From Phytophthora sp. 'mugwort' (lineage: Eukaryota; Oomycota; Peronosporomycetes; Peronosporales; Peronosporaceae), in assembly GCA_033558025.1 (NCBI GenBank), contig JAUCEF010000003.1, positions 3,374,001 through 3,438,000 of the forward strand: a DNA stretch of 64,000 nt, written 5' to 3'. Under the pieces are notes generated by a model, which saw only the letters and a list, made by a program, of their open reading frames with translations, ran no database searches and was not told the origin of the DNA. Below, piece by piece: positions 1-64,000 of this stretch (within the stretch, counting starts at the first letter, position 1; every line of letters starts with the position of its first letter). Both the position numbers and the translations under genes were made by a program.

Positions 1-532
1 TTCCCAAATGTGCACTTCGCGGTTCTCCTGCGAAACTCGCTGACCTTGAGTAACACTTTTCTTTTCGCTTCCTTATATATCGCTCGTGTGCCTTTTCCAT
101 ACATGGGATCGGCCCTTCAATGCTTGAGCTTATCAGTTTATCATCGGTCGACTTGGCATTCATTCGCTTGCCTATGTATCAGATATTTCGGTGCCTTATT
201 CGCTTTGACTTGCTTTGTCTTCCTGGTGCCCTCGCGTTGCCTCCACCGTGTGTTGTCGGATCTATCTGTCTTCTTCCCTTTACTCGTCATATTAGAAGTG
301 TGTTGTACATTATCAGCACAAGCGTTAGGAGTCGGCGAGGCGCTCGGTTTTGAGGCACGGCCAGTCGACGGACCGCGAACCTATCCAACACGCAAATGGA
401 TAAATCGCTGCAGCGCGGTCGAAAGCGGGTGGGGTGTTCCATTTAAACGTCGGCACCGTGACTAGCAGAAAAGGCTTCGGCGCGGGTGTGCAGCGAGCGA
501 ATGCGTATAGACCGAAAACGCGAGTGGAGATG

Positions 533-538
533 TATAAA
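533..538 (+). promoter_or_regulatory. TATAAA element 132 bp upstream of the tRNA
   Basis: TATAAA recurs at the same place in every unit. It lies much further upstream than the roughly 30 bp typical of TATA elements that assist RNA polymerase III at tRNA genes, so a role for the tRNA is doubtful. It could serve an unannotated transcript or be chance A/T sequence. Confidence 0.3.
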
Positions 539-578
539 TTGATTTGCTGTTGTTAGGTGGCATTGTTCATAGAGTGGC

Positions 579-666
579 GTGTGTATGGTAGTGCGGTGTT
601 TTGGTTGTGTATTGATGTGTTGTGTTCGTCGATATTTGTGTTGTGGTAGAGCGCGTTTGTTGTTGT
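579..666 (+). other. G/T-rich tract just upstream of the tRNA
   Basis: Only five C occur in these 88 bases (594, 627, 630, 652, 654). The tract holds the leader length variants: ATT-plus, TG-minus, and the G-to-A change seen at 26478 and 46061. It abuts the tRNA and contains TGGTAGAGCGC at 644-654, an 11-base copy of part of the tRNA D arm at 686-696. Confidence 0.7.
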
Positions 667-676
667 CCTGGGGATG

Positions 677-688
677 TAGCTCAAATGG
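677..688 (+). promoter_or_regulatory. Internal A box of copy 1
   Basis: TAGCTCAAATGG matches the RNA polymerase III type 2 A box over T8 to G19. The GC at tRNA positions 10-11 is the most conserved part and is changed to AC in eight copies of the array. Confidence 0.85.
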
Positions 689-720
689 TAGAGCGCTCGC
701 TTAGCATGCGAGAGGTACAG

Positions 721-731
721 GGATCGATACC
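721..731 (+). promoter_or_regulatory. Internal B box of copy 1
   Basis: GGATCGATACC corresponds to the TFIIIC-binding B box (consensus GGTTCGANTCC). A replaces T at positions 54 and 60; A54 is common in eukaryotic tRNA-Ala. Confidence 0.85.
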
Positions 732-798
732 CTGCTTCTCCACTGATCATGTTACTGTGATAAAAGCAGTTGGCATCAGCACTTTCCCAAATGTGCAC

Positions 799-817
799 TT
801 CGCGGTTCTCCTGCGAA
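799..817 (+). other. Small hairpin in the 3' trailer
   Basis: TTCGCGG (799-805) can pair with CC plus GCGAA (810-811, 813-817) around a TTCT loop, with T812 bulged. It lies between the tRNA and the first T run and appears in every unit. Seven pairs with a bulge is modest, so it may be chance. Confidence 0.35.
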
Positions 818-839
818 ACTCGCTGACCTTGAGTAACAC

Positions 840-848
840 TTTTCTTTT
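840..848 (+). terminator. First possible RNA polymerase III terminator (T4-C-T4)
   Basis: TTTTCTTTT is the first run of four or more T on the coding strand after the tRNA, with 97 nt between. Most eukaryotic tRNA genes have a T run within a few tens of bases. If used, the primary transcript would carry a trailer of roughly 100 nt. The element recurs in every unit. Confidence 0.5.
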
Positions 849-856
849 CGCTTCCT

Positions 857-863
857 TATATAT
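857..863 (+). promoter_or_regulatory. TATATAT motif after the T run
   Basis: The motif is nine bases beyond the T4-C-T4 run and is present in every unit; one unit has C for the preceding T (40786). No transcript start can be assigned to it. Confidence 0.2.
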
Positions 864-875
864 CGCTCGTGTGCC

Positions 876-879
876 TTTT
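876..879 (+). terminator. Second T run, polymorphic T4/T3
   Basis: TTTT here is TTT in 33 of 82 spacers. It could act as a backup polymerase III terminator where four T remain. The loss is common in type A (26 of 41) and never seen in types C or F. Confidence 0.3.
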
Positions 880-1452
880 CCATACATGGGATCGGCCCTT
901 CAATGCTTGAGCTTATCAGTTTATCATCGGTCGACTTGGCATTCATTCGCTTGCCTATGTATCAGATATTTCGGTGCCTTACTCGCTTTGACTTGCTTTG
1001 TCTTCCTGGCGCCCTCGCGTTGCCTCCACCGTCTGTTGTCGGATCTATCTGTCTTCTTCCCTTTACTCGTCATACTAGAAGTGTGTTGTACATTATCAGC
1101 ACAAGCGTTAGGAGTCGGCGAGGCGCTCGGTTTTGAGGCACGGCCAGTCGACGGACCGCGAACCTATCCAACACGCAAATGGATAAATCGCTGCAGCGCG
1201 GTCGAAAGCGGGTGGGGTGTTCCATTTAAACGTCGGCACCGTGACTAGCAGAAAAGGCTTCGGCGCGGGTGTGCAGCGAGCGAATGCGTATAGACCGAAA
1301 ACGCGAGTGGAGATGTATAAATTGATTTGCTGTTGTTAGGTGGCATTGTTCATAGAGTGGCGTGTGTATGGTAGTGCGGTGTTTTGGTTGTGTATTGATG
1401 TGTTGTGTTCGTCGATATTTGTGTTGTGGTAGAGCGCGTTTGTTGTTGTCCT

Positions 1453-1525
1453 GGGGATGTAGCTCAAATGGTAGAGCGCTCGCTTAGCATGCGAGAGGTA
1501 CAGGGATCGATACCCTGCTTCTCCA
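1453..1525 (+). tRNA. tRNA-Ala-AGC: tRNA-Ala(AGC), copy 2
   Basis: Same as copy 1. Standard leader; followed by spacer C4. Confidence 0.95.
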
Positions 1526-2235
1526 CTGATCATGTTACTGTGATAAAAGCAGTTGGCATCAGCACTTTCCCAAATGTGCACTTCGCGGTTCTCCTGCGAA
1601 ACTCGCTGACCTTGAGTAACACTTTTCTTTTCGCTTCCTTATATATCGCTCGTGTGCCTTTTCCATACATGGGATCGGCCCTTCAATGCTTGAGCTTATC
1701 AGTTTATCATCGGTCGACTTGGCATTCATTCGCTTGCCTATGTATCAGATATTTCGGTGCCTTATTCGCTTTGACTTGCTTTGTCTTCCTGGTGCCCTCG
1801 CGTTGCCTTCACCGTGTGTTGTCGGATCTATCTGTCTTCTTCCCTTTACTCGTCATATTAGAAGTGTGTTGTACATTATCAGCACAAGCGTTAGGAGTCG
1901 GCGAGGCGCTCGGTTTTGAGGCACGGCCAGTCGACGGACCGCGAACCTATCCAACACGCAAATGGATAAATCGCTGCAGCGCGGTCGAAAGCGGGTGGGG
2001 TGTTCCATTTAAACGTCGGCACCGTGACTAGCAGAAAAGGCTTCGGCGCGGGTGTGCAGCGAGCGAATGCGTATAGACCGAAAACGCGAGTGGAGATGTA
2101 TAAATTGATTTGCTGTTGTTAGGTGGCATTGTTCATAGAGTGGCGTGTGTATGGTAGTGCGGTGTTTTGGTTGTGTATTGATGTGTTGTGTTCGTCGATA
2201 TTTGTGTTGTGGTAGAGCGCGTTTGTTGTTGTCCT

Positions 2236-2308
2236 GGGGATGTAACTCAAATGGTAGAGCGCTCGCTTAGCATGCGAGAGGTACAGGGATCGATACCCTG
2301 CTTCTCCA
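2236..2308 (+). tRNA. tRNA-Ala-AGC: tRNA-Ala(AGC), copy 3, G10A variant
   Basis: G-to-A at 2245 (tRNA position 10) turns the G10:C25 pair of the D stem into A:C and changes the A box core from TAGC to TAAC. Transcription and folding may both be weakened, so this could be a pseudogene. Standard leader after a C4 spacer; followed by A4. Confidence 0.78.
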
Positions 2309-3018
2309 CTGATCATGTTACTGTGATAAAAGCAGTTGGCATCAGCACTTTCCCAAATGTGCACTTCGCGGTTCTCCTGCGAAACTCGCTGACCTTGAGT
2401 AACACTTTTCTTTTCGCTTCCTTATATATCGCTCGTGTGCCTTTTCCATACATGGGATCGGCCCTTCAATGCTTGAGCTTATCAGTTTATCATCGGTCGA
2501 CTTGGCATTCATTCGCTTGCCTATGTATCAGATATTTCGGTGCCTTATTCGCTTTGACTTGCTTTGTCTTCCTGGTGCCCTCGCGTTGCCTCCACCGTGT
2601 GTTGTCGGATCTATCTGTCTTCTTCCCTTTACTCGTCATATTAGAAGTGTGTTGTACATTATCAGCACAAGCGTTAGGAGTCGGCGAGGCGCTCGGTTTT
2701 GAGGCACGGCCAGTCGACGGACCGCGAACCTATCCAACACGCAAATGGATAAATCGCTGCAGCGCGGTCGAAAGCGGGTGGGGTGTTCCATTTAAACGTC
2801 GGCACCGTGACTAGCAGAAAAGGCTTCGGCGCGGGTGTGCAGCGAGCGAATGCGTATAGACCGAAAACGCGAGTGGAGATGTATAAATTGATTTGCTGTT
2901 GTTAGGTGGCATTGTTCATAGAGTGGCGTGTGTATGGTAGTGCGGTGTTTTGGTTGTGTATTGATGTGTTGTGTTCGTCGATATTTGTGTTGTGGTAGAG
3001 CGCGTTTGTTGTTGTCCT

Positions 3019-3091
3019 GGGGATGTAGCTCAAATGGTAGAGCGCTCGCTTAGCATGCGAGAGGTACAGGGATCGATACCCTGCTTCTCCA
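3019..3091 (+). tRNA. tRNA-Ala-AGC: tRNA-Ala(AGC), copy 4
   Basis: Same as copy 1. Standard leader; followed by C4. Confidence 0.95.
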
Positions 3092-3801
3092 CTGATCATG
3101 TTACTGTGATAAAAGCAGTTGGCATCAGCACTTTCCCAAATGTGCACTTCGCGGTTCTCCTGCGAAACTCGCTGACCTTGAGTAACACTTTTCTTTTCGC
3201 TTCCTTATATATCGCTCGTGTGCCTTTTCCATACATGGGATCGGCCCTTCAATGCTTGAGCTTATCAGTTTATCATCGGTCGACTTGGCATTCATTCGCT
3301 TGCCTATGTATCAGATATTTCGGTGCCTTATTCGCTTTGACTTGCTTTGTCTTCCTGGTGCCCTCGCGTTGCCTTCACCGTGTGTTGTCGGATCTATCTG
3401 TCTTCTTCCCTTTACTCGTCATATTAGAAGTGTGTTGTACATTATCAGCACAAGCGTTAGGAGTCGGCGAGGCGCTCGGTTTTGAGGCACGGCCAGTCGA
3501 CGGACCGCGAACCTATCCAACACGCAAATGGATAAATCGCTGCAGCGCGGTCGAAAGCGGGTGGGGTGTTCCATTTAAACGTCGGCACCGTGACTAGCAG
3601 AAAAGGCTTCGGCGCGGGTGTGCAGCGAGCGAATGCGTATAGACCGAAAACGCGAGTGGAGATGTATAAATTGATTTGCTGTTGTTAGGTGGCATTGTTC
3701 ATAGAGTGGCGTGTGTATGGTAGTGCGGTGTTTTGGTTGTGTATTGATGTGTTGTGTTCGTCGATATTTGTGTTGTGGTAGAGCGCGTTTGTTGTTGTCC
3801 T

Positions 3802-3874
3802 GGGGATGTAACTCAAATGGTAGAGCGCTCGCTTAGCATGCGAGAGGTACAGGGATCGATACCCTGCTTCTCCA
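3802..3874 (+). tRNA. tRNA-Ala-AGC: tRNA-Ala(AGC), copy 5, G10A variant
   Basis: G10A at 3811, preceded by a C4 spacer. Followed by A3 with a private C-to-G at 4405, shared only with the unit after copy 16. Confidence 0.78.
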
Positions 3875-4583
3875 CTGATCATGTTACTGTGATAAAAGCA
3901 GTTGGCATCAGCACTTTCCCAAATGTGCACTTCGCGGTTCTCCTGCGAAACTCGCTGACCTTGAGTAACACTTTTCTTTTCGCTTCCTTATATATCGCTC
4001 GTGTGCCTTTCCATACATGGGATCGGCCCTTCAATGCTTGAGCTTATCAGTTTATCATCGGTCGACTTGGCATTCATTCGCTTGCCTATGTATCAGATAT
4101 TTCGGTGCCTTATTCGCTTTGACTTGCTTTGTCTTCCTGGTGCCCTCGCGTTGCCTCCACCGTGTGTTGTCGGATCTATCTGTCTTCTTCCCTTTACTCG
4201 TCATATTAGAAGTGTGTTGTACATTATCAGCACAAGCGTTAGGAGTCGGCGAGGCGCTCGGTTTTGAGGCACGGCCAGTCGACGGACCGCGAACCTATCC
4301 AACACGCAAATGGATAAATCGCTGCAGCGCGGTCGAAAGCGGGTGGGGTGTTCCATTTAAACGTCGGCACCGTGACTAGCAGAAAAGGCTTCGGCGCGGG
4401 TGTGGAGCGAGCGAATGCGTATAGACCGAAAACGCGAGTGGAGATGTATAAATTGATTTGCTGTTGTTAGGTGGCATTGTTCATAGAGTGGCGTGTGTAT
4501 GGTAGTGCGGTGTTTTGGTTGTGTATTGATGTGTTGTGTTCGTCGATATTTGTGTTGTGGTAGAGCGCGTTTGTTGTTGTCCT

Positions 4584-4656
4584 GGGGATGTAGCTCAAAT
4601 GGTAGAGCGCTCGCTTAGCATGCGAGAGGTACAGGGATCGATACCCTGCTTCTCCA
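4584..4656 (+). tRNA. tRNA-Ala-AGC: tRNA-Ala(AGC), copy 6
   Basis: Same as copy 1. Standard leader; followed by D4. Confidence 0.95.
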
Positions 4657-5364
4657 CTGATCATGTTACTGTGATAAAAGCAGTTGGCATCAGCACTTTC
4701 CCAAATGTGCACTTCGCGGTTCTCCTGCGAAACTCGCTGACCTTGAGTAACACTTTTCTTTTCGCTTCCTTATATATCGCTCGTGTGCCTTTTCCATACA
4801 TGGGATCGGCCCTTCAATGCTTGAGCTTATCAGTTTATCATCGGTCGACTTGGCATTCATTCGCTTGCCTATGTATCAGATATTTCGGTGCCTTATTCGC
4901 TTTGACTTGCTTTGTCTTCCTGGCGCCCTCGCGTTGCCTCCACCGTATGTTGTCGGATCTATCTGTCTTCTTCCCTTTACTCGTCATATTAGAAGTGTGT
5001 TGTACACTATCAGCACAAGCGTTAGGAGTCGGCGAGGCGCTCGGTTTTGAGGTACGGCCAGTCGACGGACCGCGAACCTATCCAACACGCAAATGGATAA
5101 ATCGCTGCAGCGCGGTCGAAAGCGGGTGGGGTGTTCCATTTAAACGTCGGCACCGTGACTAGCAGAAAAGGCTTCGGCGCGGGTGTGCAGCGAGCGAATG
5201 CGTATAGACCGAAAACGCGAGTGGAGATGTATAAATTGATTTGCTGTTGTTAGGTGGCATTGTTCATAGAGTGGCGTGTGTATGGTAGTGCGGTGTTTTG
5301 GTTGTGTATTGATGTGTTGTGTTCGTCGATATTTGTGTTGGTAGAGCGCGTTTGTTGTTGTCCT

Positions 5365-5437
5365 GGGGATGTAGCTCAAATGGTAGAGCGCTCGCTTAGC
5401 ATGCGAGAGGTACAGGGATCGATACCCTGCTTCTCCA
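5365..5437 (+). tRNA. tRNA-Ala-AGC: tRNA-Ala(AGC), copy 7
   Basis: tRNA as copy 1. TG-minus leader; followed by A3 with T-to-C at 5874, shared only with the unit after copy 18. Confidence 0.95.
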
Positions 5438-6146
5438 CTGATCATGTTACTGTGATAAAAGCAGTTGGCATCAGCACTTTCCCAAATGTGCACTTCGCGG
5501 TTCTCCTGCGAAACTCGCTGACCTTGAGTAACACTTTTCTTTTCGCTTCCTTATATATCGCTCGTGTGCCTTTCCATACATGGGATCGGCCCTTCAATGC
5601 TTGAGCTTATCAGTTTATCATCGGTCGACTTGGCATTCATTCGCTTGCCTATGTATCAGATATTTCGGTGCCTTATTCGCTTTGACTTGCTTTGTCTTCC
5701 TGGTGCCCTCGCGTTGCCTCCACCGTGTGTTGTCGGATCTATCTGTCTTCTTCCCTTTACTCGTCATATTAGAAGTGTGTTGTACATTATCAGCACAAGC
5801 GTTAGGAGTCGGCGAGGCGCTCGGTTTTGAGGCACGGCCAGTCGACGGACCGCGAACCTATCCAACACGCAAACGGATAAATCGCTGCAGCGCGGTCGAA
5901 AGCGGGTGGGGTGTTCCATTTAAACGTCGGCACCGTGACTAGCAGAAAAGGCTTCGGCGCGGGTGTGCAGCGAGCGAATGCGTATAGACCGAAAACGCGA
6001 GTGGAGATGTATAAATTGATTTGCTGTTGTTAGGTGGCATTGTTCATAGAGTGGCGTGTGTATGGTAGTGCGGTGTTTTGGTTGTGTATTGATGTGTTGT
6101 GTTCGTCGATATTTGTGTTGTGGTAGAGCGCGTTTGTTGTTGTCCT

Positions 6147-6219
6147 GGGGATGTAGCTCAAATGGTAGAGCGCTCGCTTAGCATGCGAGAGGTACAGGGA
6201 TCGATACCCTGCTTCTCCA
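6147..6219 (+). tRNA. tRNA-Ala-AGC: tRNA-Ala(AGC), copy 8
   Basis: Same as copy 1. Standard leader; followed by A3. Confidence 0.95.
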
Positions 6220-6931
6220 CTGATCATGTTACTGTGATAAAAGCAGTTGGCATCAGCACTTTCCCAAATGTGCACTTCGCGGTTCTCCTGCGAAACTCGC
6301 TGACCTTGAGTAACACTTTTCTTTTCGCTTCCTTATATATCGCTCGTGTGCCTTTCCATACATGGGATCGGCCCTTCAATGCTTGAGCTTATCAGTTTAT
6401 CATCGGTCGACTTGGCATTCATTCGCTTGCCTATGTATCAGATATTTCGGTGCCTTATTCGCTTTGACTTGCTTTGTCTTCCTGGTGCCCTCGCGTTGCC
6501 TCCACCGTGTGTTGTCGGATCTATCTGTCTTCTTCCCTTTACTCGTCATATTAGAAGTGTGTTGTACATTATCAGCACAAGCGTTAGGAGTCGGCGAGGC
6601 GCTCGGTTTTGAGGCACGGCCAGTCGACGGACCGCGAACCTATCCAACACGCAAATGGATAAATCGCTGCAGCGCGGTCGAAAGCGGGTGGGGTGTTCCA
6701 TTTAAACGTCGGCACCGTGACTAGCAGAAAAGGCTTCGGCGCGGGTGTGCAGCGAGCGAATGCGTATAGACCGAAAACGCGAGTGGAGATGTATAAATTG
6801 ATTTGCTGTTGTTAGGTGGCATTGTTCATAGAGTGGCGTGTGTATGGTAGTGCGGTGTTTTGGTTGTGTATTGATGTGTTGTGTTCGTCGATATTATTTG
6901 TGTTGTGGTAGAGCGCGTTTGTTGTTGTCCT

Positions 6932-7004
6932 GGGGATGTAGCTCAAATGGTAGAGCGCTCGCTTAGCATGCGAGAGGTACAGGGATCGATACCCTGCTTC
7001 TCCA
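6932..7004 (+). tRNA. tRNA-Ala-AGC: tRNA-Ala(AGC), copy 9
   Basis: tRNA as copy 1. First ATT-plus leader in the window; followed by E4. Confidence 0.95.
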
Positions 7005-7714
7005 CTGATCATGTTACTGTGATAAAAGCAGTTGGCATCAGCACTTTCCCAAATGTGCACTTCGCGGTTCTCCTGCGAAACTCGCTGACCTTGAGTAACA
7101 CTTTTCTTTTCGCTTCCTTATATATCGCTCGTGTGCCTTTTCCATACATGGGATCGGCCCTTCAATGCTTGAGCTTATCAGTTTATCATCGGTCGACTTG
7201 GCATTCATTCGCTTGCCTATGTATCAGATATTTCGGTGCCTTATTCGCTTTGACTTGCTTTGTCTTCCTGGCGCCCTCGCGTTGCCTCCACCGTGTGTTG
7301 TCGGATCTATCTGTCTTCTTCCCTTTACTCGTCATATTAGAAGTGTGTTGTACACTATCAGCACAAGCGTTAGGAGTCGGCGAGGCGCTCGGTTTTGAGG
7401 TACGGCCAGTCGACGGACCGCGAACCTATCCAACACGCAAATGGATAAATCGCTGCAGCGCGGTCGAAAGCGGGTGGGGTGTTCCATTTAAACGTCGGCA
7501 CCGTGACTAGCAGAAAAGGCTTCGGCGCGGGTGTGCAGCGAGCGAATGCGTATAGACCGAAAACGCGAGTGGAGATGTATAAATTGATTTGCTGTTGTTA
7601 GGTGGCATTGTTCATAGAGTGGCGTGTGTATGGTAGTGCGGTGTTTTGGTTGTGTATTGATGTGTTGTGTTCGTCGATATTTGTGTTGTGGTAGAGCGCG
7701 TTTGTTGTTGTCCT

Positions 7715-7787
7715 GGGGATGTAGCTCAAATGGTAGAGCGCTCGCTTAGCATGCGAGAGGTACAGGGATCGATACCCTGCTTCTCCA
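7715..7787 (+). tRNA. tRNA-Ala-AGC: tRNA-Ala(AGC), copy 10
   Basis: Same as copy 1. Standard leader; followed by F4. The 8,611-bp match to the second block ends in this unit. Confidence 0.95.
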
Positions 7788-8497
7788 CTGATCATGTTAC
7801 TGTGATAAAAGCAGTTGGCATCAGCACTTTCCCAAATGTGCACTTCGCGGTTCTCCTGCGAAACTCGCTGACCTTGAGTAACACTTTTCTTTTCGCTTCC
7901 TTATATATCGCTCGTGTGCCTTTTCCATACATGGGATCGGCCCTTCAATGCTTGAGCTTATCAGTTTATCATCGGTCGACTTGGCATTCATTCGCTTGCC
8001 TATGTATCAGATATTTCGGTGCCTTATTCGCTTTGACTTGCTTTGTCTTCCTGGTGCCCTCGCGTTGCCTTCACCGTGTGTTGTCGGATCTATCTGTCTT
8101 CTTCCCTTTACTCGTCATATTAGAAGTGTGTTGTACACTATCAGCACAAGCGTTAGGAGTCGGCGAGGCGCTCGGTTTTGAGGTACGGCCAGTCGACGGA
8201 CCGCGAACCTATCCAACACGCAAATGGATAAATCGCTGCAGCGCGGTCGAAAGCGGGTGGGGTGTTCCATTTAAACGTCGGCACCGTGACTAGCAGAAAA
8301 GGCTTCGGCGCGGGTGTGCAGCGAGCGAATGCGTATAGACCGAAAACGCGAGTGGAGATGTATAAATTGATTTGCTGTTGTTAGGTGGCATTGTTCATAG
8401 AGTGGCGTGTGTATGGTAGTGCGGTGTTTTGGTTGTGTATTGATGTGTTGTGTTCGTCGATATTTGTGTTGTGGTAGAGCGCGTTTGTTGTTGTCCT

Positions 8498-8570
8498 GGG
8501 GATGTAGCTCAAATGGTAGAGCGCTCGCTTAGCATGCGAGAGGTACAGGGATCGATACCCTGCTTCTCCA
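8498..8570 (+). tRNA. tRNA-Ala-AGC: tRNA-Ala(AGC), copy 11
   Basis: Same as copy 1. Standard leader; followed by A4, the partner of the spacer at the left window edge. Confidence 0.95.
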
Positions 8571-9280
8571 CTGATCATGTTACTGTGATAAAAGCAGTTG
8601 GCATCAGCACTTTCCCAAATGTGCACTTCGCGGTTCTCCTGCGAAACTCGCTGACCTTGAGTAACACTTTTCTTTTCGCTTCCTTATATATCGCTCGTGT
8701 GCCTTTTCCATACATGGGATCGGCCCTTCAATGCTTGAGCTTATCAGTTTATCATCGGTCGACTTGGCATTCATTCGCTTGCCTATGTATCAGATATTTC
8801 GGTGCCTTATTCGCTTTGACTTGCTTTGTCTTCCTGGTGCCCTCGCGTTGCCTCCACCGTGTGTTGTCGGATCTATCTGTCTTCTTCCCTTTACTCGTCA
8901 TATTAGAAGTGTGTTGTACATTATCAGCACAAGCGTTAGGAGTCGGCGAGGCGCTCGGTTTTGAGGCACGGCCAGTCGACGGACCGCGAACCTATCCAAC
9001 ACGCAAATGGATAAATCGCTGCAGCGCGGTCGAAAGCGGGTGGGGTGTTCCATTTAAACGTCGGCACCGTGACTAGCAGAAAAGGCTTCGGCGCGGGTGT
9101 GCAGCGAGCGAATGCGTATAGACCGAAAACGCGAGTGGAGATGTATAAATTGATTTGCTGTTGTTAGGTGGCATTGTTCATAGAGTGGCGTGTGTATGGT
9201 AGTGCGGTGTTTTGGTTGTGTATTGATGTGTTGTGTTCGTCGATATTTGTGTTGTGGTAGAGCGCGTTTGTTGTTGTCCT

Positions 9281-9353
9281 GGGGATGTAGCTCAAATGGT
9301 AGAGCGCTCGCTTAGCATGCGAGAGGTACAGGGATCGATACCCTGCTTCTCCA
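9281..9353 (+). tRNA. tRNA-Ala-AGC: tRNA-Ala(AGC), copy 12
   Basis: Block partner of copy 1. Standard leader; followed by B4. Confidence 0.95.
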
Positions 9354-10063
9354 CTGATCATGTTACTGTGATAAAAGCAGTTGGCATCAGCACTTTCCCA
9401 AATGTGCACTTCGCGGTTCTCCTGCGAAACTCGCTGACCTTGAGTAACACTTTTCTTTTCGCTTCCTTATATATCGCTCGTGTGCCTTTTCCATACATGG
9501 GATCGGCCCTTCAATGCTTGAGCTTATCAGTTTATCATCGGTCGACTTGGCATTCATTCGCTTGCCTATGTATCAGATATTTCGGTGCCTTACTCGCTTT
9601 GACTTGCTTTGTCTTCCTGGCGCCCTCGCGTTGCCTCCACCGTCTGTTGTCGGATCTATCTGTCTTCTTCCCTTTACTCGTCATACTAGAAGTGTGTTGT
9701 ACATTATCAGCACAAGCGTTAGGAGTCGGCGAGGCGCTCGGTTTTGAGGCACGGCCAGTCGACGGACCGCGAACCTATCCAACACGCAAATGGATAAATC
9801 GCTGCAGCGCGGTCGAAAGCGGGTGGGGTGTTCCATTTAAACGTCGGCACCGTGACTAGCAGAAAAGGCTTCGGCGCGGGTGTGCAGCGAGCGAATGCGT
9901 ATAGACCGAAAACGCGAGTGGAGATGTATAAATTGATTTGCTGTTGTTAGGTGGCATTGTTCATAGAGTGGCGTGTGTATGGTAGTGCGGTGTTTTGGTT
10001 GTGTATTGATGTGTTGTGTTCGTCGATATTTGTGTTGTGGTAGAGCGCGTTTGTTGTTGTCCT

Positions 10064-10136
10064 GGGGATGTAGCTCAAATGGTAGAGCGCTCGCTTAGCA
10101 TGCGAGAGGTACAGGGATCGATACCCTGCTTCTCCA
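10064..10136 (+). tRNA. tRNA-Ala-AGC: tRNA-Ala(AGC), copy 13
   Basis: Block partner of copy 2. Standard leader; followed by C4. Confidence 0.95.
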
Positions 10137-10846
10137 CTGATCATGTTACTGTGATAAAAGCAGTTGGCATCAGCACTTTCCCAAATGTGCACTTCGCGGT
10201 TCTCCTGCGAAACTCGCTGACCTTGAGTAACACTTTTCTTTTCGCTTCCTTATATATCGCTCGTGTGCCTTTTCCATACATGGGATCGGCCCTTCAATGC
10301 TTGAGCTTATCAGTTTATCATCGGTCGACTTGGCATTCATTCGCTTGCCTATGTATCAGATATTTCGGTGCCTTATTCGCTTTGACTTGCTTTGTCTTCC
10401 TGGTGCCCTCGCGTTGCCTTCACCGTGTGTTGTCGGATCTATCTGTCTTCTTCCCTTTACTCGTCATATTAGAAGTGTGTTGTACATTATCAGCACAAGC
10501 GTTAGGAGTCGGCGAGGCGCTCGGTTTTGAGGCACGGCCAGTCGACGGACCGCGAACCTATCCAACACGCAAATGGATAAATCGCTGCAGCGCGGTCGAA
10601 AGCGGGTGGGGTGTTCCATTTAAACGTCGGCACCGTGACTAGCAGAAAAGGCTTCGGCGCGGGTGTGCAGCGAGCGAATGCGTATAGACCGAAAACGCGA
10701 GTGGAGATGTATAAATTGATTTGCTGTTGTTAGGTGGCATTGTTCATAGAGTGGCGTGTGTATGGTAGTGCGGTGTTTTGGTTGTGTATTGATGTGTTGT
10801 GTTCGTCGATATTTGTGTTGTGGTAGAGCGCGTTTGTTGTTGTCCT

Positions 10847-10919
10847 GGGGATGTAACTCAAATGGTAGAGCGCTCGCTTAGCATGCGAGAGGTACAGGGA
10901 TCGATACCCTGCTTCTCCA
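10847..10919 (+). tRNA. tRNA-Ala-AGC: tRNA-Ala(AGC), copy 14, G10A variant
   Basis: G10A at 10856; block partner of copy 3. Preceded by C4, followed by A4. Confidence 0.78.
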
Positions 10920-11629
10920 CTGATCATGTTACTGTGATAAAAGCAGTTGGCATCAGCACTTTCCCAAATGTGCACTTCGCGGTTCTCCTGCGAAACTCGC
11001 TGACCTTGAGTAACACTTTTCTTTTCGCTTCCTTATATATCGCTCGTGTGCCTTTTCCATACATGGGATCGGCCCTTCAATGCTTGAGCTTATCAGTTTA
11101 TCATCGGTCGACTTGGCATTCATTCGCTTGCCTATGTATCAGATATTTCGGTGCCTTATTCGCTTTGACTTGCTTTGTCTTCCTGGTGCCCTCGCGTTGC
11201 CTCCACCGTGTGTTGTCGGATCTATCTGTCTTCTTCCCTTTACTCGTCATATTAGAAGTGTGTTGTACATTATCAGCACAAGCGTTAGGAGTCGGCGAGG
11301 CGCTCGGTTTTGAGGCACGGCCAGTCGACGGACCGCGAACCTATCCAACACGCAAATGGATAAATCGCTGCAGCGCGGTCGAAAGCGGGTGGGGTGTTCC
11401 ATTTAAACGTCGGCACCGTGACTAGCAGAAAAGGCTTCGGCGCGGGTGTGCAGCGAGCGAATGCGTATAGACCGAAAACGCGAGTGGAGATGTATAAATT
11501 GATTTGCTGTTGTTAGGTGGCATTGTTCATAGAGTGGCGTGTGTATGGTAGTGCGGTGTTTTGGTTGTGTATTGATGTGTTGTGTTCGTCGATATTTGTG
11601 TTGTGGTAGAGCGCGTTTGTTGTTGTCCT

Positions 11630-11702
11630 GGGGATGTAGCTCAAATGGTAGAGCGCTCGCTTAGCATGCGAGAGGTACAGGGATCGATACCCTGCTTCTC
11701 CA
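11630..11702 (+). tRNA. tRNA-Ala-AGC: tRNA-Ala(AGC), copy 15
   Basis: Block partner of copy 4. Standard leader; followed by C4. Confidence 0.95.
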
Positions 11703-12412
11703 CTGATCATGTTACTGTGATAAAAGCAGTTGGCATCAGCACTTTCCCAAATGTGCACTTCGCGGTTCTCCTGCGAAACTCGCTGACCTTGAGTAACACT
11801 TTTCTTTTCGCTTCCTTATATATCGCTCGTGTGCCTTTTCCATACATGGGATCGGCCCTTCAATGCTTGAGCTTATCAGTTTATCATCGGTCGACTTGGC
11901 ATTCATTCGCTTGCCTATGTATCAGATATTTCGGTGCCTTATTCGCTTTGACTTGCTTTGTCTTCCTGGTGCCCTCGCGTTGCCTTCACCGTGTGTTGTC
12001 GGATCTATCTGTCTTCTTCCCTTTACTCGTCATATTAGAAGTGTGTTGTACATTATCAGCACAAGCGTTAGGAGTCGGCGAGGCGCTCGGTTTTGAGGCA
12101 CGGCCAGTCGACGGACCGCGAACCTATCCAACACGCAAATGGATAAATCGCTGCAGCGCGGTCGAAAGCGGGTGGGGTGTTCCATTTAAACGTCGGCACC
12201 GTGACTAGCAGAAAAGGCTTCGGCGCGGGTGTGCAGCGAGCGAATGCGTATAGACCGAAAACGCGAGTGGAGATGTATAAATTGATTTGCTGTTGTTAGG
12301 TGGCATTGTTCATAGAGTGGCGTGTGTATGGTAGTGCGGTGTTTTGGTTGTGTATTGATGTGTTGTGTTCGTCGATATTTGTGTTGTGGTAGAGCGCGTT
12401 TGTTGTTGTCCT

Positions 12413-12485
12413 GGGGATGTAACTCAAATGGTAGAGCGCTCGCTTAGCATGCGAGAGGTACAGGGATCGATACCCTGCTTCTCCA
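12413..12485 (+). tRNA. tRNA-Ala-AGC: tRNA-Ala(AGC), copy 16, G10A variant
   Basis: G10A at 12422; block partner of copy 5. Followed by A3 with the private G at 13016. Confidence 0.78.
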
Positions 12486-13194
12486 CTGATCATGTTACTG
12501 TGATAAAAGCAGTTGGCATCAGCACTTTCCCAAATGTGCACTTCGCGGTTCTCCTGCGAAACTCGCTGACCTTGAGTAACACTTTTCTTTTCGCTTCCTT
12601 ATATATCGCTCGTGTGCCTTTCCATACATGGGATCGGCCCTTCAATGCTTGAGCTTATCAGTTTATCATCGGTCGACTTGGCATTCATTCGCTTGCCTAT
12701 GTATCAGATATTTCGGTGCCTTATTCGCTTTGACTTGCTTTGTCTTCCTGGTGCCCTCGCGTTGCCTCCACCGTGTGTTGTCGGATCTATCTGTCTTCTT
12801 CCCTTTACTCGTCATATTAGAAGTGTGTTGTACATTATCAGCACAAGCGTTAGGAGTCGGCGAGGCGCTCGGTTTTGAGGCACGGCCAGTCGACGGACCG
12901 CGAACCTATCCAACACGCAAATGGATAAATCGCTGCAGCGCGGTCGAAAGCGGGTGGGGTGTTCCATTTAAACGTCGGCACCGTGACTAGCAGAAAAGGC
13001 TTCGGCGCGGGTGTGGAGCGAGCGAATGCGTATAGACCGAAAACGCGAGTGGAGATGTATAAATTGATTTGCTGTTGTTAGGTGGCATTGTTCATAGAGT
13101 GGCGTGTGTATGGTAGTGCGGTGTTTTGGTTGTGTATTGATGTGTTGTGTTCGTCGATATTTGTGTTGTGGTAGAGCGCGTTTGTTGTTGTCCT

Positions 13195-13267
13195 GGGGAT
13201 GTAGCTCAAATGGTAGAGCGCTCGCTTAGCATGCGAGAGGTACAGGGATCGATACCCTGCTTCTCCA
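13195..13267 (+). tRNA. tRNA-Ala-AGC: tRNA-Ala(AGC), copy 17
   Basis: Block partner of copy 6. Standard leader; followed by D4. Confidence 0.95.
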
Positions 13268-13975
13268 CTGATCATGTTACTGTGATAAAAGCAGTTGGCA
13301 TCAGCACTTTCCCAAATGTGCACTTCGCGGTTCTCCTGCGAAACTCGCTGACCTTGAGTAACACTTTTCTTTTCGCTTCCTTATATATCGCTCGTGTGCC
13401 TTTTCCATACATGGGATCGGCCCTTCAATGCTTGAGCTTATCAGTTTATCATCGGTCGACTTGGCATTCATTCGCTTGCCTATGTATCAGATATTTCGGT
13501 GCCTTATTCGCTTTGACTTGCTTTGTCTTCCTGGCGCCCTCGCGTTGCCTCCACCGTATGTTGTCGGATCTATCTGTCTTCTTCCCTTTACTCGTCATAT
13601 TAGAAGTGTGTTGTACACTATCAGCACAAGCGTTAGGAGTCGGCGAGGCGCTCGGTTTTGAGGTACGGCCAGTCGACGGACCGCGAACCTATCCAACACG
13701 CAAATGGATAAATCGCTGCAGCGCGGTCGAAAGCGGGTGGGGTGTTCCATTTAAACGTCGGCACCGTGACTAGCAGAAAAGGCTTCGGCGCGGGTGTGCA
13801 GCGAGCGAATGCGTATAGACCGAAAACGCGAGTGGAGATGTATAAATTGATTTGCTGTTGTTAGGTGGCATTGTTCATAGAGTGGCGTGTGTATGGTAGT
13901 GCGGTGTTTTGGTTGTGTATTGATGTGTTGTGTTCGTCGATATTTGTGTTGGTAGAGCGCGTTTGTTGTTGTCCT

Positions 13976-14048
13976 GGGGATGTAGCTCAAATGGTAGAGC
14001 GCTCGCTTAGCATGCGAGAGGTACAGGGATCGATACCCTGCTTCTCCA
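13976..14048 (+). tRNA. tRNA-Ala-AGC: tRNA-Ala(AGC), copy 18
   Basis: Block partner of copy 7. TG-minus leader; followed by A3 with C at 14485. Confidence 0.95.
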
Positions 14049-14757
14049 CTGATCATGTTACTGTGATAAAAGCAGTTGGCATCAGCACTTTCCCAAATGT
14101 GCACTTCGCGGTTCTCCTGCGAAACTCGCTGACCTTGAGTAACACTTTTCTTTTCGCTTCCTTATATATCGCTCGTGTGCCTTTCCATACATGGGATCGG
14201 CCCTTCAATGCTTGAGCTTATCAGTTTATCATCGGTCGACTTGGCATTCATTCGCTTGCCTATGTATCAGATATTTCGGTGCCTTATTCGCTTTGACTTG
14301 CTTTGTCTTCCTGGTGCCCTCGCGTTGCCTCCACCGTGTGTTGTCGGATCTATCTGTCTTCTTCCCTTTACTCGTCATATTAGAAGTGTGTTGTACATTA
14401 TCAGCACAAGCGTTAGGAGTCGGCGAGGCGCTCGGTTTTGAGGCACGGCCAGTCGACGGACCGCGAACCTATCCAACACGCAAACGGATAAATCGCTGCA
14501 GCGCGGTCGAAAGCGGGTGGGGTGTTCCATTTAAACGTCGGCACCGTGACTAGCAGAAAAGGCTTCGGCGCGGGTGTGCAGCGAGCGAATGCGTATAGAC
14601 CGAAAACGCGAGTGGAGATGTATAAATTGATTTGCTGTTGTTAGGTGGCATTGTTCATAGAGTGGCGTGTGTATGGTAGTGCGGTGTTTTGGTTGTGTAT
14701 TGATGTGTTGTGTTCGTCGATATTTGTGTTGTGGTAGAGCGCGTTTGTTGTTGTCCT

Positions 14758-14830
14758 GGGGATGTAGCTCAAATGGTAGAGCGCTCGCTTAGCATGCGAG
14801 AGGTACAGGGATCGATACCCTGCTTCTCCA
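14758..14830 (+). tRNA. tRNA-Ala-AGC: tRNA-Ala(AGC), copy 19
   Basis: Block partner of copy 8. Standard leader; followed by A3. Confidence 0.95.
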
Positions 14831-15542
14831 CTGATCATGTTACTGTGATAAAAGCAGTTGGCATCAGCACTTTCCCAAATGTGCACTTCGCGGTTCTCCT
14901 GCGAAACTCGCTGACCTTGAGTAACACTTTTCTTTTCGCTTCCTTATATATCGCTCGTGTGCCTTTCCATACATGGGATCGGCCCTTCAATGCTTGAGCT
15001 TATCAGTTTATCATCGGTCGACTTGGCATTCATTCGCTTGCCTATGTATCAGATATTTCGGTGCCTTATTCGCTTTGACTTGCTTTGTCTTCCTGGTGCC
15101 CTCGCGTTGCCTCCACCGTGTGTTGTCGGATCTATCTGTCTTCTTCCCTTTACTCGTCATATTAGAAGTGTGTTGTACATTATCAGCACAAGCGTTAGGA
15201 GTCGGCGAGGCGCTCGGTTTTGAGGCACGGCCAGTCGACGGACCGCGAACCTATCCAACACGCAAATGGATAAATCGCTGCAGCGCGGTCGAAAGCGGGT
15301 GGGGTGTTCCATTTAAACGTCGGCACCGTGACTAGCAGAAAAGGCTTCGGCGCGGGTGTGCAGCGAGCGAATGCGTATAGACCGAAAACGCGAGTGGAGA
15401 TGTATAAATTGATTTGCTGTTGTTAGGTGGCATTGTTCATAGAGTGGCGTGTGTATGGTAGTGCGGTGTTTTGGTTGTGTATTGATGTGTTGTGTTCGTC
15501 GATATTATTTGTGTTGTGGTAGAGCGCGTTTGTTGTTGTCCT

Positions 15543-15615
15543 GGGGATGTAGCTCAAATGGTAGAGCGCTCGCTTAGCATGCGAGAGGTACAGGGATCGA
15601 TACCCTGCTTCTCCA
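15543..15615 (+). tRNA. tRNA-Ala-AGC: tRNA-Ala(AGC), copy 20
   Basis: Block partner of copy 9. ATT-plus leader; followed by E4. Confidence 0.95.
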
Positions 15616-16325: not shown

Positions 16326-16398
16326 GGGGATGTAGCTCAAATGGTAGAGCGCTCGCTTAGCATGCGAGAGGTACAGGGATCGATACCCTGCTTCTCCA
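16326..16398 (+). tRNA. tRNA-Ala-AGC: tRNA-Ala(AGC), copy 21
   Basis: Same as copy 1. Standard leader; followed by A3, where copy 10 has F4, so the block match stops here. Confidence 0.95.
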
Positions 16399-60184: not shown

Positions 60185-60257
60185 GGGGATGTAGCTCAAA
60201 TGGTAGAGCGCTCGCTTAGCATGCGAGAGGTACAGGGATCGATACCCTGCTTCTCCA
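60185..60257 (+). tRNA. tRNA-Ala-AGC: tRNA-Ala(AGC), copy 77
   Basis: tRNA as copy 1. Last ATT-plus leader in the window; followed by E4. Confidence 0.95.
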
Positions 60258-60967
60258 CTGATCATGTTACTGTGATAAAAGCAGTTGGCATCAGCACTTT
60301 CCCAAATGTGCACTTCGCGGTTCTCCTGCGAAACTCGCTGACCTTGAGTAACACTTTTCTTTTCGCTTCCTTATATATCGCTCGTGTGCCTTTTCCATAC
60401 ATGGGATCGGCCCTTCAATGCTTGAGCTTATCAGTTTATCATCGGTCGACTTGGCATTCATTCGCTTGCCTATGTATCAGATATTTCGGTGCCTTATTCG
60501 CTTTGACTTGCTTTGTCTTCCTGGCGCCCTCGCGTTGCCTCCACCGTGTGTTGTCGGATCTATCTGTCTTCTTCCCTTTACTCGTCATATTAGAAGTGTG
60601 TTGTACACTATCAGCACAAGCGTTAGGAGTCGGCGAGGCGCTCGGTTTTGAGGTACGGCCAGTCGACGGACCGCGAACCTATCCAACACGCAAATGGATA
60701 AATCGCTGCAGCGCGGTCGAAAGCGGGTGGGGTGTTCCATTTAAACGTCGGCACCGTGACTAGCAGAAAAGGCTTCGGCGCGGGTGTGCAGCGAGCGAAT
60801 GCGTATAGACCGAAAACGCGAGTGGAGATGTATAAATTGATTTGCTGTTGTTAGGTGGCATTGTTCATAGAGTGGCGTGTGTATGGTAGTGCGGTGTTTT
60901 GGTTGTGTATTGATGTGTTGTGTTCGTCGATATTTGTGTTGTGGTAGAGCGCGTTTGTTGTTGTCCT

Positions 60968-61040
60968 GGGGATGTAGCTCAAATGGTAGAGCGCTCGCTT
61001 AGCATGCGAGAGGTACAGGGATCGATACCCTGCTTCTCCA
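60968..61040 (+). tRNA. tRNA-Ala-AGC: tRNA-Ala(AGC), copy 78
   Basis: Same as copy 1. Standard leader; followed by A4. Confidence 0.95.
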
Positions 61041-61750
61041 CTGATCATGTTACTGTGATAAAAGCAGTTGGCATCAGCACTTTCCCAAATGTGCACTTCG
61101 CGGTTCTCCTGCGAAACTCGCTGACCTTGAGTAACACTTTTCTTTTCGCTTCCTTATATATCGCTCGTGTGCCTTTTCCATACATGGGATCGGCCCTTCA
61201 ATGCTTGAGCTTATCAGTTTATCATCGGTCGACTTGGCATTCATTCGCTTGCCTATGTATCAGATATTTCGGTGCCTTATTCGCTTTGACTTGCTTTGTC
61301 TTCCTGGTGCCCTCGCGTTGCCTCCACCGTGTGTTGTCGGATCTATCTGTCTTCTTCCCTTTACTCGTCATATTAGAAGTGTGTTGTACATTATCAGCAC
61401 AAGCGTTAGGAGTCGGCGAGGCGCTCGGTTTTGAGGCACGGCCAGTCGACGGACCGCGAACCTATCCAACACGCAAATGGATAAATCGCTGCAGCGCGGT
61501 CGAAAGCGGGTGGGGTGTTCCATTTAAACGTCGGCACCGTGACTAGCAGAAAAGGCTTCGGCGCGGGTGTGCAGCGAGCGAATGCGTATAGACCGAAAAC
61601 GCGAGTGGAGATGTATAAATTGATTTGCTGTTGTTAGGTGGCATTGTTCATAGAGTGGCGTGTGTATGGTAGTGCGGTGTTTTGGTTGTGTATTGATGTG
61701 TTGTGTTCGTCGATATTTGTGTTGTGGTAGAGCGCGTTTGTTGTTGTCCT

Positions 61751-61823
61751 GGGGATGTAGCTCAAATGGTAGAGCGCTCGCTTAGCATGCGAGAGGTACA
61801 GGGATCGATACCCTGCTTCTCCA
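61751..61823 (+). tRNA. tRNA-Ala-AGC: tRNA-Ala(AGC), copy 79
   Basis: Same as copy 1. Standard leader; followed by A4. Confidence 0.95.
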
Positions 61824-62533
61824 CTGATCATGTTACTGTGATAAAAGCAGTTGGCATCAGCACTTTCCCAAATGTGCACTTCGCGGTTCTCCTGCGAAAC
61901 TCGCTGACCTTGAGTAACACTTTTCTTTTCGCTTCCTTATATATCGCTCGTGTGCCTTTTCCATACATGGGATCGGCCCTTCAATGCTTGAGCTTATCAG
62001 TTTATCATCGGTCGACTTGGCATTCATTCGCTTGCCTATGTATCAGATATTTCGGTGCCTTATTCGCTTTGACTTGCTTTGTCTTCCTGGTGCCCTCGCG
62101 TTGCCTCCACCGTGTGTTGTCGGATCTATCTGTCTTCTTCCCTTTACTCGTCATATTAGAAGTGTGTTGTACATTATCAGCACAAGCGTTAGGAGTCGGC
62201 GAGGCGCTCGGTTTTGAGGCACGGCCAGTCGACGGACCGCGAACCTATCCAACACGCAAATGGATAAATCGCTGCAGCGCGGTCGAAAGCGGGTGGGGTG
62301 TTCCATTTAAACGTCGGCACCGTGACTAGCAGAAAAGGCTTCGGCGCGGGTGTGCAGCGAGCGAATGCGTATAGACCGAAAACGCGAGTGGAGATGTATA
62401 AATTGATTTGCTGTTGTTAGGTGGCATTGTTCATAGAGTGGCGTGTGTATGGTAGTGCGGTGTTTTGGTTGTGTATTGATGTGTTGTGTTCGTCGATATT
62501 TGTGTTGTGGTAGAGCGCGTTTGTTGTTGTCCT

Positions 62534-62606
62534 GGGGATGTAGCTCAAATGGTAGAGCGCTCGCTTAGCATGCGAGAGGTACAGGGATCGATACCCTGCT
62601 TCTCCA
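62534..62606 (+). tRNA. tRNA-Ala-AGC: tRNA-Ala(AGC), copy 80
   Basis: Same as copy 1. Standard leader; followed by C4. Confidence 0.95.
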
Positions 62607-63316
62607 CTGATCATGTTACTGTGATAAAAGCAGTTGGCATCAGCACTTTCCCAAATGTGCACTTCGCGGTTCTCCTGCGAAACTCGCTGACCTTGAGTAA
62701 CACTTTTCTTTTCGCTTCCTTATATATCGCTCGTGTGCCTTTTCCATACATGGGATCGGCCCTTCAATGCTTGAGCTTATCAGTTTATCATCGGTCGACT
62801 TGGCATTCATTCGCTTGCCTATGTATCAGATATTTCGGTGCCTTATTCGCTTTGACTTGCTTTGTCTTCCTGGTGCCCTCGCGTTGCCTTCACCGTGTGT
62901 TGTCGGATCTATCTGTCTTCTTCCCTTTACTCGTCATATTAGAAGTGTGTTGTACATTATCAGCACAAGCGTTAGGAGTCGGCGAGGCGCTCGGTTTTGA
63001 GGCACGGCCAGTCGACGGACCGCGAACCTATCCAACACGCAAATGGATAAATCGCTGCAGCGCGGTCGAAAGCGGGTGGGGTGTTCCATTTAAACGTCGG
63101 CACCGTGACTAGCAGAAAAGGCTTCGGCGCGGGTGTGCAGCGAGCGAATGCGTATAGACCGAAAACGCGAGTGGAGATGTATAAATTGATTTGCTGTTGT
63201 TAGGTGGCATTGTTCATAGAGTGGCGTGTGTATGGTAGTGCGGTGTTTTGGTTGTGTATTGATGTGTTGTGTTCGTCGATATTTGTGTTGTGGTAGAGCG
63301 CGTTTGTTGTTGTCCT

Positions 63317-63389
63317 GGGGATGTAACTCAAATGGTAGAGCGCTCGCTTAGCATGCGAGAGGTACAGGGATCGATACCCTGCTTCTCCA
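63317..63389 (+). tRNA. tRNA-Ala-AGC: tRNA-Ala(AGC), copy 81, G10A variant
   Basis: G10A at 63326, again after a C4 spacer; followed by A3. It reappears 38 kb after the previous G10A copy, so the C-then-G10A segment is probably dispersed through the array beyond this window. Confidence 0.78.
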
Positions 63390-64000
63390 CTGATCATGTT
63401 ACTGTGATAAAAGCAGTTGGCATCAGCACTTTCCCAAATGTGCACTTCGCGGTTCTCCTGCGAAACTCGCTGACCTTGAGTAACACTTTTCTTTTCGCTT
63501 CCTTATATATCGCTCGTGTGCCTTTCCATACATGGGATCGGCCCTTCAATGCTTGAGCTTATCAGTTTATCATCGGTCGACTTGGCATTCATTCGCTTGC
63601 CTATGTATCAGATATTTCGGTGCCTTATTCGCTTTGACTTGCTTTGTCTTCCTGGTGCCCTCGCGTTGCCTCCACCGTGTGTTGTCGGATCTATCTGTCT
63701 TCTTCCCTTTACTCGTCATATTAGAAGTGTGTTGTACATTATCAGCACAAGCGTTAGGAGTCGGCGAGGCGCTCGGTTTTGAGGCACGGCCAGTCGACGG
63801 ACCGCGAACCTATCCAACACGCAAATGGATAAATCGCTGCAGCGCGGTCGAAAGCGGGTGGGGTGTTCCATTTAAACGTCGGCACCGTGACTAGCAGAAA
63901 AGGCTTCGGCGCGGGTGTGCAGCGAGCGAATGCGTATAGACCGAAAACGCGAGTGGAGATGTATAAATTGATTTGCTGTTGTTAGGTGGCATTGTTCATA
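63390..64000 (+). repeat. Partial spacer, type A3, at the right edge
   Basis: The spacer has the usual trailer, T runs and TATAAA but is cut inside the leader region about 100 bp before the expected next tRNA. No gene is seen, and the array evidently continues. Confidence 0.9.

Follow-up and report, generated by a model that had tools for sequence, protein, structure and literature searches.

Tandem tRNA-Ala(AGC) genes in a satellite-like 783-bp repeat, each followed by a candidate box C/D RNA ahead of the first T-run

Results

Organization of the repeat array

The window, by which we mean the whole 64,000-base stretch of DNA that was analyzed, is occupied from end to end by units of about 783 bp, each carrying one tRNA-Ala(AGC) gene (Table 1). 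ARAGORN called 81 such genes from 670 to 63390, all on the + strand, and the distance from one gene to the next was 781-786 bp over the 80 intervals (783 bp in 39, 782 bp in 21, 785 bp in 10, 786 bp in five, 781 bp in four and 784 bp in one). A 23-base piece from the 3′ part of the tRNA gene occurred 81 times in the window, against 0 occurrences expected from shuffles. These results agree with the first-pass annotation, which had counted 81 copies in one orientation at about 783 bp each and had read the G3:U70 pair and the AGC anticodon as kept throughout; both are present in 81/81 copies. The consensus unit is 783 bp long with 49% G+C and a CpG observed/expected ratio of 1.19. The left partial unit (1-669) was identical to the consensus at 669/669 positions, and the right one (63317-64000) aligned with 683 identities, one mismatch and a one-base gap. 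Since both partial units match the consensus, the array extends beyond both edges of the window, as had also been claimed, while the accompanying phrase "no end in view" holds for the 64-kb window only. Tandem Repeats Finder, run with periods up to 500 bp, reported zero short tandem repeats in the window, a result without bearing on the 783-bp period because of that limit.

Table 1. Positions of the array, the repeat unit and the features discussed in the text
Feature	Position	Strand	Remarks
Tandem array, ~783-bp units	1..64000	+	80 complete units (670-63316) plus a partial unit at each edge
Exact repeat of 8612-16534, 7,923 bp	1..7923	+	Reaches the left window edge; units u1-u9 = u12-u20
Representative repeat unit	670..1452	+	Unit position p = window position 669+p
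tRNA-Ala(AGC) with A box and B box	670..742	+	A15/A48, A54/A58, G3:U70; U6:U67 mismatch
Stretch between tRNA and first TTTT, 97 nt	743..839	+	Candidate trailer or second RNA
Candidate box C/D RNA	750..838	+	Stem TGTTAC 750-755, C box GTGATAA 757-763, D box TTGA 829-832, stem GTAACA 833-838
First Pol III-terminator-like T-run 3′ of the tRNA	840..848	+	Sequence: TTTTCTTTT
GT-rich stretch, 80-83% G+T	1330..1449	+	Unit positions 661-780, just 5′ of the next tRNA
G10A tRNA variant, example	2236..2308	+	G10-C25 broken, A box altered; 8/81 copies
6-unit block, 4,698 bp	7715..12412	+	Identical to 18674-23371, 14-unit offset

Variation among the units

Alignment of the 80 complete units gave 786 columns, 23 of them variable, and resolved 30 distinct units with a mean pairwise difference of 4.5 (0.57%; mean identity 99.4%). 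The longest recurring run of identical successive units was nine, compared with at most five in 2000 shuffles of unit order, and since the recurring nine- and six-unit blocks exceed the lengths seen in shuffles, they point to recent segmental duplication. Only run length was exceptional, as the number of recurring runs of at least two units (15) fell within that of the shuffles (mean 8.5, sd 2.8, largest 23). A regular higher-order repeat was rejected; the longest blocks recur at differing offsets (11, 14, 25, 3 and 16 units), and the duplication was thus irregular. All four variant combinations were seen in 31 of 136 site pairs and in none of the 15 pairs lying within 50 bp, a pattern as expected from exchange between units. 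With many co-oriented, near-identical units and a tRNA in each, the locus is a tandem tRNA gene array, and by its length (at least 64 kb), its uniformity at this level of difference, its head-to-tail order and the concerted evolution visible in the recurring blocks it also has the form of satellite DNA. Substitution sites fell at 2 of 73 tRNA positions and 13 of 710 spacer positions (Fisher p 0.64), and at 3 of 179 positions of the supposed transcript and 12 of 604 in the remainder of the unit; neither the tRNA nor the transcript is better conserved within the array, and the comparison with the spacer detected no selection on the tRNA.

The tRNA gene and its missing proximal terminator

The gene has, in all 81 copies, the features of a eukaryotic tRNA-Ala(AGC), namely G3:U70, the AGC anticodon, a purine at 15 with A48 together with A54/A58, U17 and purines at 16 and 60. 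The pairs A15/A48 and A54/A58, kept in 81/81 copies, are the tertiary pairs of eukaryotic AGC-tRNA-Ala (PMC7566577). Variation within the tRNA is confined to G10A (8/81) and A42C (5/81), and 68/81 copies are identical. The acceptor stem is not fully paired: U6 faces U67 in 81/81 copies, flagged as non-standard by cmscan in the three copies aligned, where the usual base at 67 in tRNA-Ala is A67, and 13/81 copies carry a further stem-breaking change. The folding energy of the array tRNA was -25.6 kcal/mol versus -29.6 kcal/mol for a paired comparator. In the first 3200 bases, Rfam RF00005 scored 57 bits for three main-form copies and 49 bits for one G10A copy, and no Rfam match besides the tRNAs was found in 1-3200 up to E=1. 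Assigned with a consensus that we take to be standard, the A box lies at unit position 8 (intact in 73/81) and the B box at 52-53 (81/81). At unit position 577 a further A-box-like match lacks an accompanying B box, so box matches alone are weak proof.

There is no T-run close 3′ of the tRNA, the first TTTT lying 98 nt past its last base, A73 (unit position 171); in one study human tRNA trailers measured about 19 nt and ended mostly in U (PMC2871053). A first 97 nt free of TTTT is not in itself unusual, as the same was found in 916 of 2000 spacer shuffles. Given the U6:U67 mismatch, the lack of a proximal T-run and the spacer-like evolution of the tRNA, the copies are not to be assumed to be 81 ordinary active genes.

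A candidate box C/D RNA in the trailer

The trailer contains a terminal stem of 6 bp, a C box (GUGAUAA) and a D box (UUGA), each box with one departure from the consensus RUGAUGA and CUGA as given in PMC7671301. The C-box side, and the D-box side with the T-run, were each kept in 80/80 complete units, and the stem ends at unit position 169, one base before the TTTT that starts at 171. A relaxed C/D model, on which our conclusions about the element lean, was reached by 8/3000 shuffled trailers with a stem of 5 and by 3/3000 with a stem of 6. Under this model a C/D-like pair also turned up in some 15% (stem 5) or 5% (stem 6) of shuffled units taken whole, and because such pairs are common there, the case rests on the placement of the element between tRNA and T-run. 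A strict kink-turn model, fitted after the element was seen and using a pairing scheme that we assume to apply, gave 0/20000 shuffled trailers and one hit in 4000 whole-unit shuffles. A looser scan with 5-nt gaps, also chosen after the element was seen, gave 0 to 1 of 3000 trailer shuffles and 4/300 whole-unit shuffles, and permits an alternative arrangement with CTGA at unit position 154, a 7-bp stem and a 5-nt gap. The trailer has an ordinary folding energy (z -1.2 to -1.6), and an Rfam search of the trailer and spacer (740-1456) returned 0 family matches up to E=10. No target in rRNA emerged from a comparison covering only 912 bases of another organism's 18S, in which the longest antisense match was 6-7 nt against a control mean of 6.5. 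An H/ACA RNA was considered, as ACA directly precedes the T-run, but was rejected with the folding being ordinary.

Other searches

Open reading frames of up to 208 aa in 1-1600 span tRNA and spacer in several frames and lend no support to a protein-coding gene. An exact 11-base repeat of the D arm before the gene was rejected as an upstream tRNA fragment, some 11-base repeat being present in 72/1000 shuffled units. In a check for a SINE-derived satellite, no A-run longer than 4 was seen in the unit consensus. Pieces of spacer or tRNA found no match in a viral contig collection, nor did the tRNA in a genome contig collection; one plasmid and two phage records matched only query positions 6-63 and 8-84, essentially the tRNA.

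Discussion

Single-tRNA tandem arrays are a rare kind of gene array, but one already known. The one-isoacceptor array had initially been called striking, a view that the long single-tRNA arrays of maize, Arabidopsis and Hydractinia do not bear out. The maize tRNA satellite (tRNASAT_ZM) covers 91.95 kb on chr4L and, likened by description only, resembles this locus in being a tandem array of satellite size that takes its name from a tRNA; its unit length, isoacceptor and any trailer are not stated in the passages on it (PMC10335936). Arabidopsis has 27 tRNA-Pro genes, maize 28 tRNA-Ile genes and plant clusters 2 to 110 genes (PMC12652284, PMC11700998). The ncRNA tandem arrays of Hydractinia, again compared by description only, are presented in the available text without a C/D-like trailer, and their authors regard the significance of these arrays as unclear without functional data (PMC11067881). 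Entamoeba likewise has tRNA genes as units of tandem arrays, but with up to five tRNA genes per unit and short tandem repeats between them (PMC2652664), whereas one tRNA per unit is found here and Tandem Repeats Finder reported no such short repeats. The human 1q23.3 VNTR is also a tandem repeat bearing tRNA and differs in having 7.3-kb units, 9-43 per allele, and a CTCF site (PMC4041453).

We read the locus as a presumably nuclear and recently expanded tandem gene array in which each 783-bp unit carries one Pol III unit of tRNA and C/D-like trailer, and we put the probability of this reading at roughly 0.55. On this reading, the intragenic A and B boxes would be the binding sites of TFIIIC; Pol III, meeting no T-run at the end of the tRNA, would continue past it and terminate at TTTTCTTTT, which begins 98 nt downstream. 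Cleavage by RNase P and RNase Z would then yield tRNA-Ala plus a trailer of roughly 100 nt resembling a box C/D RNA. Unequal exchange and multi-unit duplication may keep the array uniform. Dicistronic tRNA-snoRNA genes of plants are reportedly treated in Kruszka 2003. Such Pol III genes are noted for plants and yeast and, as UM2 loci, for C. elegans (PMC2527325; plants also PMC8351944), and in C. elegans snoRNAs are transcribed from tRNA-like promoters lying upstream of them, with transcription ending at T-runs (PMC2527325). The unit shares with them a tRNA or tRNA-like promoter upstream, a small RNA downstream and a T-run stop; in the portions of both papers available these genes are not described as a long tandem array, and the C/D RNA here is a candidate. 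Judged from sequence, the trailer signature and its placement at the T-run suggest that the unit may be a tRNA-snoRNA Pol III unit. What is new here is a tRNA without its own T-run followed by a C/D-like element ahead of the first TTTT. The anatomy reported by the first-pass annotation stands, and tRNA amplification, one of its readings, has support, but the C/D-like trailer ending at the first T-run had been overlooked.

The same features are open to a doubtful yet substantial alternative, a structural satellite with a captured and largely inert tRNA passenger, most copies being silent or poorly processed. Equal variability of tRNA and spacer, the U6:U67 mismatch common to all copies, the further stem break in 13/81, the missing proximal T-run, and the satellite-like mixture of unit haplotypes and duplicated blocks are in keeping with an inert passenger; the intact A boxes (73/81) and B boxes (81/81) and the special tertiary positions kept in 81/81 copies speak against it, as does the CpG ratio of 1.19, which bears no trace of long-standing methylation, a modification that the organism may however lack, and the trailer signature adjoining the first T-run would have to be a coincidence. 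It is unlikely that the array would instead act through its B box, present in 81/81 copies, as a TFIIIC-bound chromatin, boundary or centromere-like domain and not through RNA. A CENP-B box was sought in the unit with a consensus that we take to be correct and rejected, the best match having 2/9 core mismatches and none having fewer, which counts against such a domain. The human 1q23.3 repeat has been proposed as a boundary element (PMC4041453), but that case rests on the CTCF site.

Amplification of tRNA-Ala dosage to serve the synthesis of a product rich in alanine, for example silk or some other structural protein, would fit the single isoacceptor, silk fibroin being about 30% alanine and one tRNA-Ala isoacceptor being raised in the Bombyx silk gland (PMC7566577). 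We hold it to be quite improbable, as the array has A15 where the named insect AGC-tRNA-Ala has G15 and G30=C40 where the silk-gland form has G30:U40 (PMC7566577), and U6:U67 and the variants would be odd in a gene selected for output. Slightly less probable still is the multiplication of a short real array by the assembler; the exact recurring blocks of 7,923 bp and of six units (4,698 bp) could arise in this way, but the 30 distinct units, their non-periodic order and the confinement of some variants to parts of the array argue for a real one.

Within the reading as a Pol III array of tRNA and C/D-like trailer, we tentatively propose, at well below even odds, an amplified tRNA-snoRNA gene in which the chief function of tRNA-Ala would be to provide an internal Pol III promoter, and a landmark for RNase Z, to a box C/D RNA that lies downstream and would be produced in large surplus. 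Such a role of the tRNA would account for the toleration of U6:U67, for the variants that break stems and for the absence of a T-run after the tRNA. The satellite would then consist of dicistronic tRNA-C/D RNA units; should the trailer prove to be a C/D RNA, a tRNA-snoRNA gene would have been amplified to satellite scale. The trailer has a defined extent, which makes direct probing possible, and A15 and U67 in all copies, with A10 and C42 in some, are markers for mature tRNA derived from the array if other genes lack them.

Organization of the tRNA-Ala(AGC) array

The window is occupied from edge to edge by a single tandem array. A first-pass annotation had described a satellite of 81 tRNA-Ala(AGC) genes in one orientation, about 783 bp apart and running past both edges, and this description held: ARAGORN located 81 such genes in the 64-kb window, all on the + strand and spaced 781-786 bp from gene to gene, and a consensus-like partial unit stands at the left edge (669/669 identical) and at the right (a single mismatch plus a 1-base gap over 684), indicating that both array ends lie outside the window. 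Chance is ruled out as the origin of the array, since a 23-base piece from the 3′ part of the tRNA gene matched 81 times versus 0 expected from shuffles. Alignment of the 80 complete units, from tRNA start to tRNA start, gave 786 columns, 23 of them variable, with a mean pairwise difference of 4.5 columns (0.57% divergence) and 30 distinct units. The asymmetry between the strands is steady along the window: each of its sixteen 4-kb bins had an AT skew near -0.24 and a GC skew near +0.10.

Single-tRNA arrays are already a known kind, given the precedents described in the cited parts of reports on a maize tRNA satellite of 91.95 kb (PMC10335936), tRNA arrays in Hydractinia and Nematostella (PMC11067881), plant tRNA clusters with between 2 and 110 genes (PMC12652284, PMC11700998), a tRNA-bearing repeat at human 1q23.3 (PMC4041453) and the tRNA gene arrays of Entamoeba (PMC2652664); the survey of Bermudez-Santana et al. 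likewise mentions homogeneous clusters and clusters with fifty and more members (PMC2888827). Among the top open-access literature matches, there was no tRNA-Ala(AGC) array at comparable scale and no tandem array of tRNA-snoRNA units.

Feature coordinates (unit positions count from the tRNA start; window position = 669 + unit position)
Feature	Window	Unit position	Strand	Remark
Trailer, 97 nt	743-839			between tRNA and first TTTT
First T-run, CTTTTCTTTT	840-848	from 171		Pol III-terminator-like
GT-rich stretch, 120 bp	1330-1449	661-780	tRNA strand (+)	80-83% G+T in consensus
D-arm copy, TGGTAGAGCGC	1427-1437			exact 11 bases; ends 15 bp upstream of next gene
Units 1-9 = units 12-20	1-7923 = 8612-16534			within exact repeat of 7,923 bp
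Units 10-15 = units 24-29	7715-12412 = 18674-23371

Block duplication and probable exchange between units

Long blocks of units recur in the same order (see table), and the longest run in 2000 shuffles of unit order was at most 5 units. Recurring short runs were unremarkable in number (15, versus a shuffle mean of 8.5 and a largest value of 23). The longest blocks are offset by 11, 14, 25, 3 and 16 units, which points to irregular segmental duplication and led us to reject a fixed higher-order repeat. All four variant combinations were found in 31 of 136 pairs of informative sites (0/15 within 50 bp, 31/121 farther apart), a pattern that exchange between units predicts and that recurrent mutation could also produce. 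Expansion of the array by the assembler is possible but unlikely, because the 30 unit types stand in a non-periodic order.

The repeated unit as a candidate Pol III transcription unit

The array tRNA combines G3:U70 and AGC with A15/A48, A54/A58 and U17, and its positions 16 and 60 are purines. The cited passages of Westhof et al. (2020, PMC7566577) describe these features as special to eukaryotic AGC-tRNA-Ala and as not observed in fungi and nematodes, giving A15 for mammals and G15 for those insects that are named there. Since the same source places no A34 tRNA-Ala in bacteria or archaea, a eukaryotic nucleus is the most likely origin. We consider it somewhat probable (about 0.55), from the anatomy of the unit, that the array is made of transcribable Pol III units: TFIIIC would bind the A and B boxes of the tRNA, Pol III would read across it as far as the T-run, and RNase Z would cleave the transcript into tRNA and trailer. 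The B box is intact in 81/81 copies and the A box in 73/81; G10A, which falls inside the A box, occurs in 8/81 copies and A42C in 5/81, each disrupting one stem pair, and U6:U67 leaves an acceptor position unpaired in every copy. The chief rival, a satellite with the tRNA as passenger, appears less likely to us. Within the array, substitution sites were alike in tRNA (2/73) and spacer (13/710; Fisher p 0.64), so that no selection on single tRNA copies is visible, in a test whose power is probably low because divergence is just 0.57%.

The unit consensus has no T4 close downstream of the tRNA gene; the first TTTT begins 98 nt past A73. Downstream poly(T) is named for flowering-plant tRNA genes (PMC11700998) and human trailers from deep sequencing are given as about 19 nt, mostly U-ended (PMC2871053), and the late T-run matters because a nearby one is normal for tRNA genes. 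Absence of TTTT over this stretch is no rarity for the base composition (916/2000 spacer shuffles). The intervening sequence, TGTTAC-T-GTGATAA ... CC-TTGA-GTAACA followed by the T-run, has box C/D RNA architecture (terminal stem, 3-nt loop, C box, D box, stem), with each box one base off RUGAUGA/CUGA. Under the kink-turn pairing scheme the two departures are mutually pairable, with A-U replacing G-C.

A bolder interpretation takes the trailer for a genuine C/D RNA, and we consider it less likely than not. With the model relaxed to one mismatch per box and gaps of at most 3, stem 5 was reached in 8/3000 and stem 6 in 3/3000 shuffled trailers, but a pair occurred anywhere in 15% (stem 5) and 5% (stem 6) of whole shuffled units; a strict kink-turn model, fitted after the element had been seen, was reached by 0/20000 shuffled trailers and had a single hit in 4000 shuffles of whole units. 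The C-box side, and likewise the D-box side with the T-run, is present in 80/80 units, and the full stretch is identical in 76/80, the other 4 differing at unit position 105. Ordinary folding energy and the lack of any Rfam match in one unit's spacer count against a C/D RNA; no rRNA complement was found in a 912-base stretch of foreign 18S. In the cited part of a C. elegans study, joint transcripts of tRNA-like promoter and snoRNA were sequenced at 4/6 loci tested, and tRNA-snoRNA genes of plants and yeast are cited (PMC2527325). The layout is similar to that of the array unit; the worm loci yielded no stable promoter part in that account and thus show no mature tRNA.

Spacer composition

CpG observed/expected was 1.19 in the unit consensus although the DNA is repeated; this gives no sign of long-term methylation and suggests an organism or locus without CpG methylation. 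The GT-rich stretch abuts the next tRNA on its upstream side, and a TATAAA lies just ahead of it at unit position 647. The D-arm copy may be chance, since 72/1000 shuffled units held some 11-base repeat. Neither a search of viral_contigs with one 29-base spacer pattern nor a search of plasmids and phages with one whole unit revealed an outside relative of the spacer. Two contigs that IMG/VR lists as viral carry Rfam matches to eukaryotic 18S rRNA (L001, 3632-4543; L002, 4059-4305) and may therefore be misfiled eukaryotic DNA.
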